From positions 1 through 20,816 of the forward strand of contig CAKZLA010000023.1 of NCBI GenBank assembly GCA_937124525.1: a stretch of 20,816 bases of DNA. The letters run 5' to 3'. Source of the DNA: an uncultured Desulfobacterium sp. (GTDB lineage: Bacteria > Desulfobacterota > Desulfobacteria > Desulfobacterales > Desulfobacteraceae). Numbering within the stretch: the stretch's first letter is position 1; each line of letters opens with the position of its first letter. The notes below the pieces were generated by a model that saw only the letters and a list, made by a program, of their open reading frames with translations, searched no databases and was not told the DNA's origin. A program made the translations under genes and the position numbers. Positions 5,855 through 20,816 of this stretch are shown here, one piece after another.

Positions 5855-6595
5855 ATGGTAACAGAAGAGATGAAAAAAGACACATTGTTTAAAGAAAAAA
5901 AAGATCCGGTGCCGGCCTTTGAATTCAACGAGAACGTGGCCCAGGTGTTTGATGATATGATAACCCGTTCAGTACCGCTTTATGGGGAGTGCGTCCATCG
6001 CCAGGCCCAGCTGGCGGCACAGTTTTATCAGAAGGGAACCCTGATTTATGATCTTGGATGTTCCCACGGCAATTTTGGCATGACACTCCACACGATCATG
6101 ACCGATGCCTCCTTTGACATGATGGCGGTGGACAGCTCCCAACCCATGTTGGACAGGTACGCGAGCCGGTTGAAAGAAAAAAAGACGGCCTCTTCGATTT
6201 TTCTTGTGTGCAATCTGGTGGAAAATATTGCCATTGCCAATGCCTCGGTGGTGGTGCTCAACCTTACCCTCCAGTTTATTTCCCCCCACAGAAGGCAGCG
6301 GATGATTCAGACCATTTATGACGGGCTTTGTCCGGGTGGGCTGCTGCTGGTCACCGAAAAAATTGTCCATGAAAATAATAAGATGGATGCGCTTGAGCAG
6401 CAGTATTATAAAAAATTCAAGCGGGAAAACGGTTATTCTGATCTGGAGATCAGCCAGAAACGGGATGCCTTGGAGGATGTCCTGGTGCCGGACACATTGG
6501 AAACCCACCGGCAACGCTTGCGCGGGGCCGGATTTGTTAACATTGATACCTGGCTTAAATGGTTTAATTTTGCAGCCATGCTTGCCATAAAATAG
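5855..6595 (+). CDS. cmoA: carboxy-S-adenosyl-L-methionine synthase CmoA
   Basis: CmoA converts SAM and prephenate to carboxy-SAM (Cx-SAM), the donor for tRNA wobble uridine modification. The 246 residues contain the class I methyltransferase fold with DLGCSHG at 66-72 (SAM glycine loop) and AVDSSQPM near 91-98 (acidic residue for the ribose). Family-specific stretches are also present: FNENVAQVFDDMITRSVP near the N-terminus, NGYSDLEISQKR, and ETHRQRLRGAGF near the C-terminus. These distinguish CmoA from ordinary methyltransferases. The ATG at 5855 is preceded by TAAGGA. Seven bases separate its stop from cmoB, so the two are almost certainly one transcript. In the cytoplasm the product feeds CmoB directly. 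Confidence 0.93.
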   Translation: MVTEEMKKDTLFKEKKDPVPAFEFNENVAQVFDDMITRSVPLYGECVHRQAQLAAQFYQKGTLIYDLGCSHGNFGMTLHTIMTDASFDMMAVDSSQPMLDRYASRLKEKKTASSIFLVCNLVENIAIANASVVVLNLTLQFISPHRRQRMIQTIYDGLCPGGLLLVTEKIVHENNKMDALEQQYYKKFKRENGYSDLEISQKRDALEDVLVPDTLETHRQRLRGAGFVNIDTWLKWFNFAAMLAIK

Positions 6596-6602
6596 GTGAT
6601 TC

Positions 6603-7592
6603 ATGATCCCGGAAATTGCGGCTGAATTTAAAAAAATTGACATTGAACGTTTAAGTGAGACTCCTTTTAAAGAGGGGCTCCATGCGGCCCTTGATAAAAA
6701 ACGATCCCAGTTTGAAATTCCCCGGGGAAATATTTTAAAGTATGCCACGGCATTGAAACGCCTGCCAAAGGTTATTCCTTTAAGCTGTGATCTTAAAACG
6801 GACGTGGTCAGGGTGGGCAGGGGTGATGAGATACCTCCTGATGAAAGGGCAGACATGGCATCGGCATTGTCTTTGATGTGCCCCTGGCGCAAGGGACCCT
6901 TTGCTCTTTTTGGCATCCCCATTGACACCGAATGGCAGAGTTTTATCAAATGGGATCGATTGGCAAAACATATTGCCCCCCTTCACCGCAGACGGATTAT
7001 GGACATAGGTGCCAGCAACGGCTACTACATGTTTCGCATGGCCGCCTTTGATCCGTCCCTGGTGGTGGGGCTGGAACCCCAGCACACCTTCTATTTTCAA
7101 TATCTGGCCCTGCAGAAATATTTAAACCTGCCCCGGGTGGCCAATCTTCCCTTTACCTTTGATGAATTTCCCGTGGTCCGGGGATATTTTGACACTGTTT
7201 TTTGCATGGGAGTCCTTTATCACCGAAAATCTCCCCTGGAAATGCTGATAAAAATCCATGATGCCCTTAAAAAAGGCGGAGAGCTGGTCCTTGAAAATCT
7301 TATCATCAGTTCCACGGAAGATGTGTGTTTTTTTCCGGAAGATCGGTACGCCAAGATGCGAAATGTTTTTTTTATTCCCAGCATCTCGGCCATGACCTCC
7401 TGGCTGAAGCGCACCGGGTTTACGAATATTCGCTGCGTTGATGTTTCCCCCACCACCCCGGGTGAACAGCGAAAAACCCCATGGATTCAAACGGAATCAC
7501 TGGATGATTTTCTGGACCCGGCAGATCCTGACAAAACCGTTGAAGGGTATCCGGCACCGGTGCGGGCCATTTTCCTTGCCACCGCCGGATGA
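6603..7592 (+). CDS. cmoB: tRNA U34 carboxymethyltransferase CmoB
   Basis: CmoB transfers the carboxymethyl group of Cx-SAM to 5-hydroxyuridine at position 34 of several tRNAs, giving uridine 5-oxyacetic acid, which broadens codon reading. The 329 residues match the family length (323 in E. coli). Diagnostic segments are CPWRKGPF near 93-100, the SAM loop IMDIGASNGYYM at 132-143, DRYAKMRNVFFIPS, and the C-terminal ESLDDFLDPADPDKTVEGYP. The SAM loop reads GASNG where the E. coli enzyme has GCGSG, a conservative variation. The ATG at 6603 lies seven bases after the cmoA stop. No strong terminator follows; the next 768 bases are non-coding. Confidence 0.93.
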   Translation: MIPEIAAEFKKIDIERLSETPFKEGLHAALDKKRSQFEIPRGNILKYATALKRLPKVIPLSCDLKTDVVRVGRGDEIPPDERADMASALSLMCPWRKGPFALFGIPIDTEWQSFIKWDRLAKHIAPLHRRRIMDIGASNGYYMFRMAAFDPSLVVGLEPQHTFYFQYLALQKYLNLPRVANLPFTFDEFPVVRGYFDTVFCMGVLYHRKSPLEMLIKIHDALKKGGELVLENLIISSTEDVCFFPEDRYAKMRNVFFIPSISAMTSWLKRTGFTNIRCVDVSPTTPGEQRKTPWIQTESLDDFLDPADPDKTVEGYPAPVRAIFLATAG

Positions 7593-14766: not shown

Positions 14767-14832
14767 ATAACGAAGCATGAAAGAATGTTAGGTATGTCTA
14801 CTCTTTCATATAAAATGGATACCTGTTGAATT

Positions 14833-14858
14833 CAAGGAGGGCTGGAAGTCCTCCATTG
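14833..14858 (-). terminator. weak hairpin just after the metF stop
   Basis: CAAGGAGG (14833-14840) pairs with CCTCC(A)TTG (14850-14858), with one bulged base and a nine-base loop. It begins six bases beyond the stop codon of metF on the minus strand. No T-run follows, so its role as a terminator is uncertain. Confidence 0.3.
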
Positions 14859-14863
14859 GTACT

Positions 14864-15796
14864 TTAAACTGAAGGTCTGGGAAGGACCCCGCATCGCTGG
14901 GCAATCTCAGGGACTTTATGTTCCCACTCAATGGCCATCATATGGACCCCGGCAACACCCTCCATCTCTTTGAACTCTTCCACCTGTTCTATGGCAAATT
15001 TGATCCCTTCCTCTGCCTGGTCTTTTTTTTCAACGCCCTTGAGACGTTTAATGACGGTGTCTGGTACATCCATGCCAGGAACAAATTTTCTCATGAAATT
15101 TGCCATGCCCACATTTTTCATGGGGGTGACCCCGGCAAGGATATAACATTTTTCGTGGAGCCCCATGTCCACGGCCCGGCGCATGAACTCCCTGAATTTT
15201 TCCATGTTGTAAATGCATTGGGTCTGGATAAAATCCGCACCTGCTGCCACTTTGGCCGCCAGGCGGTGGACCCGATAGTCAAAGGGATCGGCAAAGGGGT
15301 TGCAGGCGGCCCCCACAAAGAGCTTTGGCCGGACATCAATCTCTTCTCCGTTGGCAAAGGTGCCCTGGTCCCGCATGGTGGTCACAAGTTTAATCAGCTG
15401 CATGGAGTCAATGTCATGGACGTTCTTGGCCTGGGGATGGTTACCAAAGGTTTGATGATCCCCGGAAAGGCAGAGCATGTTTTTAATGCCCAATGCCTGG
15501 GCACCCAGAATATCACTGGTGATGGCCAGGCGGTTTCTGTCCCGGCATACCATCTGGAAATTTGGCTCCATGCCCTCGTGCACCATGAGGTGGGATGCGG
15601 CAAGGCTGGACATCCTCACCACAGCGGTCTGGTTGTCGGTGATATTAACGGCGTCCACATTGCCTTTAAGGTGCTGGAATTTTTCCACAAGGTGTGCAAC
15701 GTTGGCCCCCTTGGGGGGACCACACTCGCCGGTGAAGGCAAAATGTCCGGCAGTGAGCACTTTTTCAAGGTTGCTTCCTGATTTCAGATCACTCAT
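14864..15796 (-). CDS. metF: methylene-tetrahydrofolate reductase, MetF catalytic subunit
   Basis: MetF reduces methylene-H4F to methyl-H4F on FAD (or the reverse), a step of the Wood-Ljungdahl methyl branch and of methionine synthesis. The 310 residues form the (beta/alpha)8 barrel of the family: FTGECGPPKGANV near the N-terminus places the catalytic glutamate at E24, LCLSGDH supplies the conserved aspartate D113, and GADFIQTQCIYN provides the substrate-binding glutamines. There is no C-terminal regulatory domain, as usual in bacteria. AAGGAGAA lies eight bases before the ATG at 15796. The gene follows metV by 56 bases. Pairing with MetV, MvhD and HdrA indicates that electrons reach the flavin through iron-sulfur partners and not by direct NADH binding, as in acetogen MetVF enzymes. 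Confidence 0.93.
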   Translation of the reverse strand: MSDLKSGSNLEKVLTAGHFAFTGECGPPKGANVAHLVEKFQHLKGNVDAVNITDNQTAVVRMSSLAASHLMVHEGMEPNFQMVCRDRNRLAITSDILGAQALGIKNMLCLSGDHQTFGNHPQAKNVHDIDSMQLIKLVTTMRDQGTFANGEEIDVRPKLFVGAACNPFADPFDYRVHRLAAKVAAGADFIQTQCIYNMEKFREFMRRAVDMGLHEKCYILAGVTPMKNVGMANFMRKFVPGMDVPDTVIKRLKGVEKKDQAEEGIKFAIEQVEEFKEMEGVAGVHMMAIEWEHKVPEIAQRCGVLPRPSV

Positions 15797-15852
15797 GGGG
15801 TGTTCTCCTTATCTGTATTTGTTGTGTCAGGGGCGGCACTGTGCCACCTTTA

Positions 15853-16521
15853 TTATTGGGTTAGCTCTTCCCGGATACTTTTCCGGGGACCGCCATCCCT
15901 GGCGGACCGCCAGTCCCTTAACTCCCTGACCCCCAAAAGATCGGTCAGTTTTCCCAGTTCCATTTTTTTTGAGACAATGAGATCCCAGATGCATTGGGTG
16001 TCTGGATTAATTTCACATTTGGTTTGGGACGATCCCCCGCAGGGACCATGGAGAAGACTTTTGGCACACCGGGCAATGGGGCAAAGGCCTTCAAAATCGT
16101 GGATAATACAGGTGCCGCAACCGGCACATCGCTCTTCCCAAATGCCATGGGCCACGGCCCCGCCGTAAAAGGTGGTGTTAACGGCGGGGAAAAATTTCTG
16201 GCCGGGGTAGGCTTCGGACAGAAACTGGGGCCCTACGCCACAGGCCATGGAGAGCACCGCGTCATAGTCGTTGACGGTGTCACTTAATTGGTCCACATAC
16301 TCATTGTCGCACTGGCGTTCAATGATGGTGGTCTCTATGGTTAAAGCTGAGTTCTCTTTTTTCCGGGCAATGCCCAGGGACGATGCCAGGATTTCCACCT
16401 CCTTGAGCCCGCCGGTATTGCAAACGGTGACGCACCCCTTGCATCCAACTATGAGGATCTTTTTTTCTGCCTCTATCATCTTTAATATTTCTGTCAGTGG
16501 TTTACGATCGGCAACTATCAT
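15853..16521 (-). CDS. metV: MetV, cysteine-rich partner of methylene-tetrahydrofolate reductase
   Basis: MetV is the iron-sulfur/zinc subunit that pairs with short MetF proteins in acetogens and other Wood-Ljungdahl organisms. The 222 residues have 13 cysteines. The N-terminal half has VGCKGCVTVC (C27, C30, C34) and SMACGVGPQ. The C-terminal MTHFR_C domain has CAGCGTC (C132, C135, C138), then GLCPIARCAKSLLHGPCGG with C147, C152 and C161, and further cysteines at 169 and 177. A good AGAGGTG ribosome-binding sequence precedes the ATG at 16521. The start is 15 bases after the mvhD stop, so both belong to one transcript. It presumably bridges MvhD/HdrA electrons to MetF. Confidence 0.9.
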   Translation of the reverse strand: MIVADRKPLTEILKMIEAEKKILIVGCKGCVTVCNTGGLKEVEILASSLGIARKKENSALTIETTIIERQCDNEYVDQLSDTVNDYDAVLSMACGVGPQFLSEAYPGQKFFPAVNTTFYGGAVAHGIWEERCAGCGTCIIHDFEGLCPIARCAKSLLHGPCGGSSQTKCEINPDTQCIWDLIVSKKMELGKLTDLLGVRELRDWRSARDGGPRKSIREELTQ

Positions 16522-16536
16522 GCTTCACCTCTATTT

Positions 16537-16950
16537 TTATTTTTTTATGGGTGTGGGGCCGAGTTGTCGGATTTTATCCGTCATCTCATGGGCAATTTGT
16601 GCAAACCGTCCCCCCTGGGCCGAAGACAGGTTGTACATCTCCACCCGATCCGGCTCCATGCCGATTTCTTTAAGGATTTTTTTTACATAGGTTACTTTCT
16701 TTCGGGTTTTAATATTGCCGGTGAGGTAGTGACACTCCCCCTCCAGGCATCCGGCCACATAGACACCGTCGGCACCGTCTTCTATGGCCTTGAGCAGATG
16801 GAGAATGTCCACCCTGCCGGTGCACGGCACCTGCAATACCTTTATTTCACTGGGATAGCTTAATCTCATGGAACCTGCCAGGTCCCCGGCTGCGTAAGCT
16901 CAATATTGGCAGCAAAAAGCAATGATGCGGGGTTCAAAGGAATCCGTCAT
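16537..16950 (-). CDS. mvhD: MvhD-type iron-sulfur subunit with in-frame TGA (probable selenocysteine)
   Basis: MvhD shuttles electrons between a donor enzyme and HdrA through a [2Fe-2S] cluster. The frame from the ATG at 16950 gives 137 residues, the usual MvhD length, if the TGA at 16902-16900 is read as selenocysteine (residue 17). The protein begins with IIAFCCQY, then Sec, then AYAAGDLAGS; the family has a CxxC here (typically CNWCSYAGAD), so Sec replaces the second cysteine. Other family marks follow: VPCTGRVD and VAGCLEGECHY. The ATG has a perfect AGGAGGAG sequence four bases upstream and lies 12 bases after the HdrA stop. An internal ATG after the TGA would yield a 110-residue protein without the cluster motif and has no such site. 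A nonsense mutation is the alternative. Confidence 0.88.
16870..16902 (-). promoter_or_regulatory. candidate bacterial SECIS element in mvhD
   Basis: After the TGA (16902-16900) and a 13-base spacer, GGGACCT and AGGTTCC form a seven-pair stem (one G-U pair) around a GGC loop at 16879-16877. The loop begins 21 bases after the TGA, close to the geometry of the E. coli fdhF element. Guanines in the apical loop are what SelB typically recognises. The element lies within the coding sequence, as in bacteria generally. Confidence 0.6.
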
Positions 16951-16962
16951 GGGTCTCCTCCT

Positions 16963-19900
16963 TTATGCCACGTTGAACAGGGCATGGGTTTTGGCAAGTA
17001 TCTGCCGATCGGTGAAATGGTTCAGGGTAATGGCCTTGGCCGGACACTCGGACACACACAATCCACAGCCATGGCACTCTCCCGGATCAATGACGGCATA
17101 GCCTTCTTCATGGATATAGGGGATTTCATAGGGGCAGGTTCTCACACAGGTGAGACACACGGCACATTGCTCCTGTTCCACCGTTGCCACAATGCCCCCC
17201 ACCATGATGTCATCCCGGGAGATGATGCGCATGGCCCTTGCCACGGCGGCCATTGCCTGGGCAATGGTCTCCTCAATGGGTTTTGGAAAATGGGCAAGTC
17301 CTGCCACAAACAGACCATCCGATGCAAAATCCACGGGTCTTAGTTTTGCATGGGCCTCCACCAGAAATCCCTCTTCATTCACCGGTATTTTAAAGGCCTC
17401 AAAGAGATGCTTATTTTCATGGGGGACAATGCCCGATGCCAGCACCAGAAAATCAGGACAGATGGTGACGGGCATCTTGAGTACATGGTCTTCCACAGTT
17501 AATTTTAAGCTGTTGGTATCATCGATTTTTACGGTGGGCATTTTTTCAAGGTCATATCGGATGAAAATAATGCCCATTCCCCGGGCCTTCTGATATAGAT
17601 CTTCCCGGAATCCATAGGACCTGATATCCCGGTAGAGAATATAAACCCGGGCCTGGGGAGACAGGATTTTCACCTCCATGGCACTTTTCAGGCTGTGGGT
17701 ACAGCACACCTTGCTGCAATAGGGGTTTTCATTGTTCCGGGAGCCCACACACTGGATGAACACCACGGATCTGCTCTTTTGAATGCGTGGTGTTTCATTT
17801 TCAAGGATTTTGTCCATTTCAAGGTGGGTCAGAACATGGGGATGTTCACCATGGCAATATTCCTTGGGCTGAAACTCCCTTCCGCCGGTGGCAATGACGG
17901 TGGCGCCATGTTCCACAGCTTCCCCGGAGGAGAGAGTGGTGATAAAATTACCCAGACTGCCCGTGGTTGATTTCACATGGGTGTTTAAGAAAACAGTGAT
18001 CTGCTCATGGGTTTGAACCTGGGTGATCCTCTTTTCAAGGTAGGGTTTAATGGGCTCTCCCTGCCAGGTGGATCTCAATTCCCGGGCCACGCCGCCCAGG
18101 AAATTCTCCCTTTCCACCAGCCATACCTGGAACCCTTGCTGGGCCACAGACAGGGCCGCCTCCATTCCAGCAATTCCCCCCCCCACCACGAGCAGGGCTT
18201 TTTTGATGGCAAGCTTAACCTGGTGTAAAGGTTCCACATGGGCGGCCTTGGCCACGGCCATGCGCACCAGATCCTTGGCCTTTTGGGTGGCTTTTTCCGG
18301 CTGGTTCATGTGAACCCAGGTGTTCTGGTCCCGGATGTTGGCCATTTCAAACAGATATTTGTTAAGCCCTGCATCCCTGATGGTCTCCTGGAACAGGGCC
18401 TCGTGGGTGCGGGGGGAACAAGATGCCACCACCACCCGGTTGATCTGTTTTTCCTGGATGATCTCTTTAATTTGCTCCTGGGTATCCTGGGAACAGGTAA
18501 ACAGATTCTCTTCCACATGGATCACATAGGGCAGGGTGGCGGCATAATCCCGCACAGCTGGCACATCGGCAATGCCGCCGATGTTGATGCCGCAATTGCA
18601 AACAAAGACGCCGATGCGGGGAGCCATGCCGGAAAAATCCCGTTCCGGTGGCAGCTCCCGGGTTCTGGTCAGGGACCAGCGCTGTTGGGACAACATTCTG
18701 GCGGCCATGGTGGCCGTTGCCGAGGCCTCCATGACGGACATGGGAATGTCCTTGGGCTCCTGGAAGGCGCCGCACACAAAAATGCCCTCCCGGGTGGTAT
18801 TCACAGGTGTCAGGTTTTGGGTATCTGCAAATTGATGGGAATTGAGTTCAATGCCCATCACCGTTGCCAGTTCCCGGGCACCGCCACAGGGGGCAAGTCC
18901 CACGGAAAGCACCACCATGTCAAAAATTTCCTGGGCCGTGGAGCCCGATTCCGTGGCATAATCAATGCGCAATCTTTGATCTTTCATGGGAAACAGGGAG
19001 TGAATTCTGGAGCGAATAAAGCGAACTCCGTTTTCGTCCTCGGCCCGGATGTTGTACTTGTCAAACTCCTTGCCATGGGTTCTCATGTCCATGAAAAAAA
19101 TGGCAGTATCCAGGGGGTGCTCACTGTGCTCCTTGGCAATCACCGCCTGCTTATTGGCATACATGCAGCACACACCGGAGCAATAACTGTGATCGCCCTG
19201 GTTGATATCCCGGGACCCCACGCACTGGAGCCAGGCGATTTTTTTGGGTTCTGCCTTGTCCGAGGGGCGTACCAGATGACCTTCATGGGGGCCGGATGCA
19301 GAGAGCAGGCGCTCAAACTCAATGCTGGTGACAATGTTGGGGGAGGTCCCGTACCCATAGGTTTTATAGGGTTCCGGATTAAAGGGGGTAAACCCCGGGG
19401 ATAAAATAATGGCCCCCACATGGATCTCCTGGACCACCGGGGTCATGGCATGGTCCACGGCCCCGGCAAGGCAGGCATCCACACAGGCCATGCACTCGGA
19501 GCAATAGCCGCAGTTAAGGCAGCGATCCGCCTCCTGCTGGCCCTGGGTCTCTTCAAACCCCAGTTCCACCTCGTTAAAATTGCCTTTGCGGTCTGCCAGG
19601 GATAGTTCCTGGATGCCATAACGTGGGGTTTGCTCAATATCCTGGGACAGCGGGGTATAGTTGGAAGATTCCTTTAATTGCCCACGGGCGGATGTAAAAG
19701 CCGTTCTACCCGCTTTCATGTCCTCCCCTGCAAGGTATCTTTCAATGGATTTTGCGGTTTCCATGCCTGCTGCAATGGCACCAATGGCCACTCCGGGACC
19801 GGTTTGCACATCTCCACCGGCAAAGACCCCTTTTTGATGGGTTTCAAAGGTTATTTCATCCACCTCTGTTGTTCCCCACCGGGTAAGGGATATGTCGCCA

Positions 19901-20816
19901 TCAGGGGAGATGGCAGTGGTGTCCGGGGTCTGTCCAATGGCCAGAATCAGTTGGTCAATGCTAATGTCATGCTCACTGCCCGGGATGGGAACGGGTCGTC
20001 GTCGTCCGGATTTATCGGGTTCGCCAAGTTCCATGCCAAGGCATTTCAGTCCGATGAGGACGTTATCCTGGCCCAAAACTTTTAGGGGCGCACAAAGGTA
20101 TACAATTTTAACGCCTTCGGCTTCGGCGGCAACAATTTCCTCCTCCCAGGCGGGCATCTCCTCCCGGGTCCGGCGGTAGAGAATGGTGGTTGTTTCAGCC
20201 CCCAGTCTTACGGCGCTTCTTGCCACATCAATGGCCACGTTTCCGCCGCCGATGATGGCCACATGTTTACCCACACGGGTGGTCCCGGTTAAATTCAGCT
20301 CCCTTAAAAAATCAACGCCCTGGCGCACATTGTCCAGATCCTCGCCGGGGATGCCAAGCCCAATGCCCTTGTGGGCCCCCAGGGCCAGAAACACCGCATC
20401 AAACCCATTCGCCAAAAGGGAATCGATGGTGAAATCTTTTCCCAGGGGGGTGTCAAGTCTTATCTCAACCCCCAGCTGGGTGATCACCTCAATGTCTTTA
20501 TCCAGTACCTCCGGTGGCAGGCGGTGGTCAGGAATCCCCACCCGGAGCATGCCCCCGGCTTTGGGAAGGGCCTCAAATATGGTGGATTTTATACCCCTTC
20601 GGGCCAGATGGTAGGCGCAGGAAAGACCCGCTGGGCCAGATCCGATGATGGCCACTTTTTTGCCTGTATCCGGGGCGCACTCAATTTTAATATCCCTGGC
20701 ATCGTACTGATCCGCGGCCAGTCGTTTCAGATCCCGAATGGCAATTGGTTCATCCACCTCACACCGGCGGCAGGCATTTTCACATTCATGGGGGCAGATA
20801 CGTCCCAGGACCCCGG
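16963..20816 (-). CDS. hdrA: NfnB/GltD-like - HdrA - HdrA fusion flavoprotein (5' end outside window)
   Basis: At least 1283 residues; the frame runs off the window edge. Numbering from the GTG at 20757: the upstream codons give GRICPHECENACRRCE, the end of an N-terminal iron-sulfur domain, so this GTG is not the start. Residues 1-350 are a GltD/NfnB-like NAD(P)H:flavin module (FAD loop GSGPAG at 39-44; nucleotide loop GGGNVA at 170-175). Residues about 355-700 are a partial HdrA with CLNCGYCSEC, CVGSRD and YCSGVCC. Residues about 712-1190 are a complete HdrA (VCNCGINIGG; FAD loop GGGIAGMEAA at 859; second CVGSR and YCSKVCC). Two [4Fe-4S] motifs follow: C1198/1201/1204/1208 and C1228/1231/1234/1238. 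It probably links NAD(P)H to ferredoxin and, through MvhD, to MetVF. No TGA interrupts this gene. Confidence 0.88.
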   Translation of the reverse strand, partial: GVLGRICPHECENACRRCEVDEPIAIRDLKRLAADQYDARDIKIECAPDTGKKVAIIGSGPAGLSCAYHLARRGIKSTIFEALPKAGGMLRVGIPDHRLPPEVLDKDIEVITQLGVEIRLDTPLGKDFTIDSLLANGFDAVFLALGAHKGIGLGIPGEDLDNVRQGVDFLRELNLTGTTRVGKHVAIIGGGNVAIDVARSAVRLGAETTTILYRRTREEMPAWEEEIVAAEAEGVKIVYLCAPLKVLGQDNVLIGLKCLGMELGEPDKSGRRRPVPIPGSEHDISIDQLILAIGQTPDTTAISPDGDISLTRWGTTEVDEITFETHQKGVFAGGDVQTGPGVAIGAIAAGMETAKSIERYLAGEDMKAGRTAFTSARGQLKESSNYTPLSQDIEQTPRYGIQELSLADRKGNFNEVELGFEETQGQQEADRCLNCGYCSECMACVDACLAGAVDHAMTPVVQEIHVGAIILSPGFTPFNPEPYKTYGYGTSPNIVTSIEFERLLSASGPHEGHLVRPSDKAEPKKIAWLQCVGSRDINQGDHSYCSGVCCMYANKQAVIAKEHSEHPLDTAIFFMDMRTHGKEFDKYNIRAEDENGVRFIRSRIHSLFPMKDQRLRIDYATESGSTAQEIFDMVVLSVGLAPCGGARELATVMGIELNSHQFADTQNLTPVNTTREGIFVCGAFQEPKDIPMSVMEASATATMAARMLSQQRWSLTRTRELPPERDFSGMAPRIGVFVCNCGINIGGIADVPAVRDYAATLPYVIHVEENLFTCSQDTQEQIKEIIQEKQINRVVVASCSPRTHEALFQETIRDAGLNKYLFEMANIRDQNTWVHMNQPEKATQKAKDLVRMAVAKAAHVEPLHQVKLAIKKALLVVGGGIAGMEAALSVAQQGFQVWLVERENFLGGVARELRSTWQGEPIKPYLEKRITQVQTHEQITVFLNTHVKSTTGSLGNFITTLSSGEAVEHGATVIATGGREFQPKEYCHGEHPHVLTHLEMDKILENETPRIQKSRSVVFIQCVGSRNNENPYCSKVCCTHSLKSAMEVKILSPQARVYILYRDIRSYGFREDLYQKARGMGIIFIRYDLEKMPTVKIDDTNSLKLTVEDHVLKMPVTICPDFLVLASGIVPHENKHLFEAFKIPVNEEGFLVEAHAKLRPVDFASDGLFVAGLAHFPKPIEETIAQAMAAVARAMRIISRDDIMVGGIVATVEQEQCAVCLTCVRTCPYEIPYIHEEGYAVIDPGECHGCGLCVSECPAKAITLNHFTDRQILAKTHALFNVA

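Follow-up and report, generated by a model that had tools for sequence, protein, structure and literature searches.

A probable selenocysteine-containing MvhD encoded with hdrL, metV, and metF in an uncultured Desulfobacterium sp.

It has been shown that MvhD-type subunits contain a [2Fe-2S] cluster and relay electrons from one module to another, linking a donor with the flavin of HdrA (PMC12350162; PMC5861303). In Moorella thermoacetica, MetFV, HdrABC, and MvhD make up one methylene-tetrahydrofolate (methylene-THF) reductase (PMC5861303; PMC8515935), and MetF, MetV, MvhD, and HdrA are encoded together (PMC8515935; PMC6085437; PMC5861303). In Thermacetogenium phaeum, hdrA, metF, metV, and a gene for an F420-hydrogenase delta subunit stand together without hdrBC (PMC6895022), and Chloroflexi DscP3 possesses an hdrABC-mvhD-metVF cluster in which hdrC is fused to hdrB (PMC5736913). 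Selenocysteine (Sec) in MvhD is not mentioned in the passages available from the papers on hdrA-mvhD-metV-metF clusters (PMC5736913; PMC6895022; PMC9012536); the MvhD and Hdr proteins of T. phaeum and DscP3, which are compared here by description only, are not called selenoproteins there.

Sec-containing members of the family have been known for some time. A 2006 paper described Sec FrhD of Deltaproteobacteria in hdrA-frhD-frhG-frhA operons, some of which also include a Sec GlpC (PMC1794560). In Desulfobacterium autotrophicum HRM2, mvhD1, 2, 3, and 5 encode selenoproteins and lie beside HdrA/HdrL genes (PMC2702500), and one Sec MvhD has been reported for Desulfococcus multivorans (PMC5109826). 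A 2026 review lists PF02662 with a CxxU motif and some archaeal forms with more than one Sec (PMC13188914). Publications on Sec MvhD with CxxU go back to 2006, so that selenoproteins of this kind are not new. In the published passages available, Sec FrhD, MvhD, and VhuD occur in hydrogenase, HdrA/HdrL, or formate dehydrogenase settings, and a metV-metF setting is not mentioned. No report of a Sec MvhD in a metFV operon was found among the papers and passages searched in one open-access library; the same holds for a Sec MvhD combined with metV-metF and a second selenoprotein, and for a bacterial switch of the Sec site between residues 17 and 68.

In this study, a stretch of 20,816 nt from an uncultured Desulfobacterium sp. 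(the window) was analyzed. It carries the gene order hdrL-mvhD(U)-metV-metF (Table 1). Judged from the sequence and its relatives, the mvhD gene almost certainly reads a TGA codon as Sec, as the relatives do. Our main reading, to which we assign a probability of about 0.9, is that MvhD would be the Sec17-containing [2Fe-2S] connector of a MetF-MetV-MvhD-HdrL reductase complex, with UGA decoding directed by a hairpin. As in Moorella, metF, metV, mvhD, and hdrA are adjacent. The cluster would represent a selenium-containing counterpart of the MetFV-HdrABC-MvhD methylene-THF reductase known from Moorella. By comparison with the description of the Moorella enzyme in the passages available, the locus differs in having Sec at MvhD residue 17 and a long HdrA to which a GltD-like NAD(P)H-binding part is fused; in place of HdrB and HdrC, 14 close relatives encode one fused HdrCB-like selenoprotein, in a region outside the window.

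Table 1. Features of the mvhD region, in window positions.
Feature	Positions	Strand	Basis
mvhD, FlpD/MvhD protein, 137 aa, Sec at residue 17	16537..16950	minus	translation, PF02662, relatives
TGA codon 17, in frame and read as Sec, at the second Cys of CxxC (C14-x-x-U17)	16900..16902	minus	translation, relatives' codons
Ribosome-binding site AGGAGGAG, 4 nt ahead of the mvhD ATG	16955..16962	minus	sequence
Shortened ORF of 110 aa from internal Met28, product of ordinary gene calling	16537..16869	minus	ORF list, database copies
SECIS-like hairpin GGGACCU-GGC-AGGUUCC, loop 20 nt past the TGA	16870..16886	minus	comparison, bSECIS limits
hdrL, HdrA fusion with a GltD/NfnB-like NAD(P)H domain, 5' end past the window edge	16963..20816	minus	
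metV, PF12225, methylene-THF reductase C-terminal family	15853..16521	minus	ORF list, profile search
metF, PF02219, methylene-THF reductase	14864..15796	minus	ORF list, profile search

The mvhD gene begins with an ATG (16950..16948) 12 nt after the hdrL stop codon and ends with a TAA (16539..16537) on the minus strand; the plus strand of 16537-16950 does not encode mvhD. With TGA translated as U, the product reads MTDSFEPRIIAFCCQYUAYAAGDLAGSMRLSYP... (137 residues). The preliminary description had pointed to an ATG with a good ribosome-binding site, an in-frame TGA at codon 17, and MvhD homology on both sides of it. These observations hold: in a profile search PF02662 matched residues 9-131 over the full profile (E 2e-48), with 163.9 bits against a gathering score of 22.3. 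The family and the CxxU motif are those of the Sec FrhD, MvhD, and VhuD proteins described in available passages on Deltaproteobacteria and methanogens. The score against the archaeal VhuD model (NCBIfam NF045873) was 156.5 bits, below the curated cut-off of 215, and by this model the protein is a bacterial relative of MvhD and not VhuD. Codon 17 of mvhD is the only internal TGA in the 6078 codons of the 14 delimited genes of the window. TGA terminates three of the 14 and TGG is used 46 times; with a single internal TGA and three genes ending in this codon, the code of the window looks standard.

A scan of GTDB genomes yielded at least 80 homologous mvhD loci, which share ancestry, and the counts given here describe close relatives rather than the whole family. 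Codon 17 was readable in 79 of the 80 loci listed (L069 starts downstream of the site); it is TGA in 46, TGC in 26, and TGT in 7. With TGA in these 46 loci and TGC or TGT in the other 33, the TGA is not a chance occurrence, and its assignment to the second Cys of the CxxC motif, suggested earlier from the single sequence, agrees with every readable locus. A relative with a residue other than Cys or Sec, which had been named as evidence that would count against the selenoprotein, did not turn up among them. All 80 rows read (window included) have Cys at residues 14, 43, and 73 and either Cys or TGA at residues 17 and 68; residue 13 showed no conservation in these rows. The nearest relative among the loci listed is Desulfocicer vacuolatum DSM 3385 (locus L007, genome G007), also with TGA at codon 17; its MvhD is 91% identical to that of the window, and the mvhD-metV DNA 88%. 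In 59 genomes of the D. vacuolatum family, drawn from a larger group, each of the 36 top-scoring matches (35 genomes) contained exactly one TGA; lower ranks included stop-free matches (up to 70% identity) and remoter ones with one TGA. A tree of the 80 MvhD rows gave five changes for Sec17 and two for Sec68. Well-supported branches force at least four and at least one, respectively, in a tree that is built on few columns and carries a long-branch warning (L077 with L080).

metV lies downstream of mvhD in 32 of the 46 loci with TGA at codon 17 (TGA17 loci, among at least 80). In four of the remaining 14, the contig ends inside mvhD or at most 190 nt past it, and ten have at least 2.6 kb free of metV, giving 32 of 42 TGA17 loci with enough sequence. 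The gene was also found downstream in 29 of the 33 Cys17 loci, which belong to several phyla. Its presence beside both forms suggests that the mvhD-metV association is probably older than the Sec/Cys difference. The ten TGA17 loci lacking metV indicate that MvhD also serves other partners, and the alternative that survives best builds on this: the protein is a selenoprotein that works with HdrL and a hydrogenase, a formate dehydrogenase, or another donor, metV and metF being mere neighbors. It has been described that methanogen MvhD joins different donors to Hdr (PMC12350162, in the part available). Against this, metV recurs next to mvhD across phyla, and the available text on Moorella reports that MetFV-HdrABC-MvhD was purified as one complex (PMC5861303). 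We consider a partner other than MetFV unlikely and favor the MetF-MetV-MvhD-HdrL complex.

The reading frame of hdrL is open to the edge of the window (20758-20816), and the start in the ORF list, an internal GTG at 20757, is too late; the complete HdrL of D. vacuolatum has 1478 aa. Among NCBIfam models, the window protein matched HdrA and GltD-like NAD(P)-binding ones, with scores under the curated cut-offs throughout the best 25 of 174 rows. MetF scored below the cut-offs of the NCBIfam MetF models listed, and MetV had no NCBIfam model match. The HdrL-MvhD loci of strain HRM2 likewise show an HdrA/glutamate-synthase fusion (HdrL) followed by mvhD, several with Sec; in the description available, Sec is also present in HdrL3 and in HdrL1, the latter being linked to dsrABC (PMC2702500), whereas the part of hdrL within the window has no in-frame TGA. 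A second Sec in the window HdrL, the N-terminus of which lies outside the window, was considered and is made less likely by this and by the Cys found at the HdrA-type NDCxxC site in the complete HdrL proteins of L007 and L001. This site is Cys in 57 of 60 properly aligned loci, after seven more rows that had aligned to a wrong internal domain were dropped, and TGA in three (L053, L065, and L080). The TGA there (L053:1751, L065:1478, and L080:1174) takes the second Cys of NDCxxC, and MvhD in the same loci also has TGA17. Separately, it was observed that nine TGA17 mvhD genes (L033, L034, L036, L040, L042, L043, L046, L048, and L050) had no metV or metF found downstream, and that hdrL adjoins all of them except L043.

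The preliminary description had also predicted that standard annotation would begin at an internal Met. ORF calling with table 11 does yield a 110-aa MvhD from Met28, and with this form as the query 118 of the best 120 of 2599 matches start exactly at the internal MR[LI]. No CxxC motif was found in the first 40 residues of any of these best 120 matches, which include the D. vacuolatum MvhD (110 aa) and one labeled fragment; the list is biased by query length and by its cut. These matches document a recurrent annotation error, in which copies of MvhD are listed without their N-terminal cysteines, and from such copies the Fe-S connector of a central enzyme of one-carbon metabolism looks defective.

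Twenty nt after the TGA, a hairpin (GGACCU-GGC-AGGUUC) is common to the TGA rows and absent from the Cys rows. Codons 23-26 are GAC CTG GCA GGT in 46 of 47 TGA rows (window counted; L080 is the exception). The probability of finding the same codon at these positions is 0.96 in TGA rows, compared to 0.45 on average and 0.76 at most for 71 other codons, and 0.62, 0.29, 0.25, and 0.40 in Cys rows. Codon 27, at the outer end of the stem, is freer in TGA rows (TCC or TCG, 0.57). Pairing in the 7-pair helix amounted to 94.7% of cells among the TGA rows, compared to 51.1% among the Cys rows. None of 500 shuffles reached the former value, and sliding by one column reduced it to 67.4%. The helix without its outer pair is almost invariant (98.2% of cells paired); of the 46 distinct TGA rows, 22 have G-C as the outer pair, 12 have C-G, and 12 leave it unpaired. 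As the rest of the helix hardly varies, the compensatory evidence comes from this outer pair; of five measures of covariation, the one for further pair types was not above shuffles. RNAalifold recovered the hairpin in the TGA alignment; in the Cys alignment it gave a different hairpin without two-sided changes.

The window hairpin (3-nt loop with G first, 7-bp stem, spacing of 20 nt, -7.8 kcal/mol) falls within the bSECIS limits quoted in the available text of PMC13188914. The best hairpin combines a 3-nt loop with 6 or 7 bp and a spacing of 20 in 44 of the 47 TGA rows, and 22 of 47 reach the energy limit of -7.5 kcal/mol; one of 33 Cys rows passes the limits. The limits are unspecific by themselves: of the 797 other TGAs that the window contains, 22 pass. 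The single-sequence fold of the region was no more stable than shuffles (z -0.15 to -0.33) and an Rfam search of the window gave no match, so the argument for a SECIS element comes from comparison. On that comparison, the hairpin, which keeps within published limits and is conserved together with the UGA, appears to be a bacterial SECIS element. A motif scan (TGA, 13-24 nt, CCTGGN[AG]GG) gave, besides the minus-strand site in mvhD, a plus-strand site at 18732, opposite hdrL; the latter was judged to be a chance match (shuffle mean 0.13).

The above data bear on a second alternative, according to which translation does end at the TGA, the 110-aa Met28 form is the actual protein, and the sequence upstream is a leader or has decayed. 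Table 11 calling and the databases give that form, and the hairpin is weak by itself. The shortened protein would lose residues 14 and 17, both of them Cys or Sec throughout the 80 rows read, and the upstream ATG is preceded by a good ribosome-binding site; MvhD homology spans codon 17 in the readable loci, and the synonymous codons past the TGA are frozen. A true stop is therefore very improbable. The selenoprotein proposed in the preliminary description is favored by TGA17 in the relatives, by the hairpin, and by the frozen codons.

The genome of D. vacuolatum (G007) encodes SelA (609 bits), SelB (380 bits), SelD (363 bits; the gene itself carries an in-frame TGA), and tRNA-Sec (75.8 bits). 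SelB was detected over its cut-off in 39 of 45 TGA17 genomes, three of five genomes with TGA at MvhD residue 68 (TGA68, described below), and 15 of 26 Cys-only genomes. For SelB or tRNA-Sec (at least 58 bits) the counts were 43/45, 5/5, and 20/26. These groups leave out the genome of L069. Fisher tests of the TGA17 and TGA68 genomes against Cys-only genomes gave p = 0.024 (SelB) and p = 0.017 (SelB or tRNA-Sec), with kinship ignored. The 58-bit threshold was chosen by us because Rfam's own limit gave hits in 5 of 14 controls, and the tRNA-Sec search scored part of the candidates. Two TGA17 genomes (G017 and G051) showed neither SelB over the cut-off nor tRNA-Sec at 58 bits, and SelD was missing in one (G004) of six genomes tested. 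The least probable alternative, in which tryptophan is inserted at the TGA (codes 4/25) or near-cognate read-through takes place, could draw on the best 120 of 6373 matches to the full-length query, where site 17 is Trp in two, possibly through translation of TGA as Trp at the source, and Arg in one; it is opposed by Cys in the other 117 (115 counted by motif and two by eye), by the TGA terminators, TGG usage, and single internal TGA of the window's delimited genes, by the conserved hairpin, and by SelB and tRNA-Sec in relatives.

Under the main reading, MvhD would act as the [2Fe-2S] electron connector of a methylene-THF reductase complex (MetF-MetV-MvhD-HdrL) in a sulfate reducer near Desulfocicer, probably joined by an HdrCB-like subunit encoded outside the window. 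Codon 17 UGA would be decoded as Sec by SelB and tRNA-Sec, directed by the hairpin with its GGC loop, and Sec would replace the second Cys of C14-x-x-C17. MetFV and HdrL may exchange electrons via MvhD; in that case the complex would couple methyl-THF/methylene-THF to NAD(P)H and a further carrier. Electrons would flow from methyl-THF to NAD(P)H and the other carrier in complete oxidation, and in reverse in CO2 fixation. It is suggested that Sec17 lies at or near the cluster and that Sec at the connector speeds or protects electron transfer; it may be a ligand of the cluster, form a selenenylsulfide, or guard against oxidation. CxxU may also tune the electron entry point to HdrA, as proposed in the preliminary description. 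Conservation of the UGA, the hairpin, and the gene neighbors, together with the sel genes of relatives, points to this scheme at the sequence level; decoding in the source organism, complex formation, and the redox role are what it predicts.

Just upstream of hdrL, L007 (252-1553) and L001 (225-1511) carry an HdrCB/GlpC-like gene with one TGA read through (U240, VVNTE-U-GHS), giving products of 433 and 428 residues, respectively; the L007 product combines an HdrC-like ferredoxin domain with HdrB-like CCG domains. By tblastn, the TGA is kept in all 14 copies found just upstream of hdrL, and a 15th match (L022) sits elsewhere in its locus. All 14 loci are TGA17 and close to the window; in remoter TGA17 loci with more than 1.2 kb of upstream sequence (e.g., L026, L028, L030, L033, L042, L046, L053, and L065) no HdrCB-like match was found. 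The core downstream of this TGA, CCTGGAAGG or CCTGGAGGG, is similar to the mvhD core CCTGGCAGG. Standard gene calling breaks the HdrCB-like gene into two ORFs.

Five loci of distant relatives (L059, L061, L064, L071, and L074), from Chloroflexi, Abyssobacteria, and Deltaproteobacteria/Desulfobacterales bins, encode MvhD with Cys17 and a TGA at residue 68; here too CCTGGAAGG follows the TGA, as part of a 7-bp hairpin that is weak (-4.3 kcal/mol). None of the 79 readable loci (among at least 80) has TGA at both positions. In PDB entry 9sfi_K, an MvhD-type subunit (F420-non-reducing hydrogenase subunit delta), an X aligns with both 17 and 68 and is presumably Sec. A two-selenoprotein methylene-THF reductase of Desulfobacteraceae, HdrCB-like(U240)-hdrL-mvhD(U17)-metV-metF, with sites 17 and 68 functionally paired, may be suggested from these observations, and we regard the odds for it as even. 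If true, selenium would stand at two electron-transfer points between methyl-THF and the electron pools of the cell, and the MvhD family would have a pair of cysteines at 17 and 68 able to be replaced by Sec, with 9sfi_K non-standard at both and the sampled bacteria at one only.

Phage records gave no near match to 14800-20816 of the window. Elsewhere in the window, two neighboring methyltransferase-like genes at 5855-7592 are presumably similar to cmoA and cmoB.
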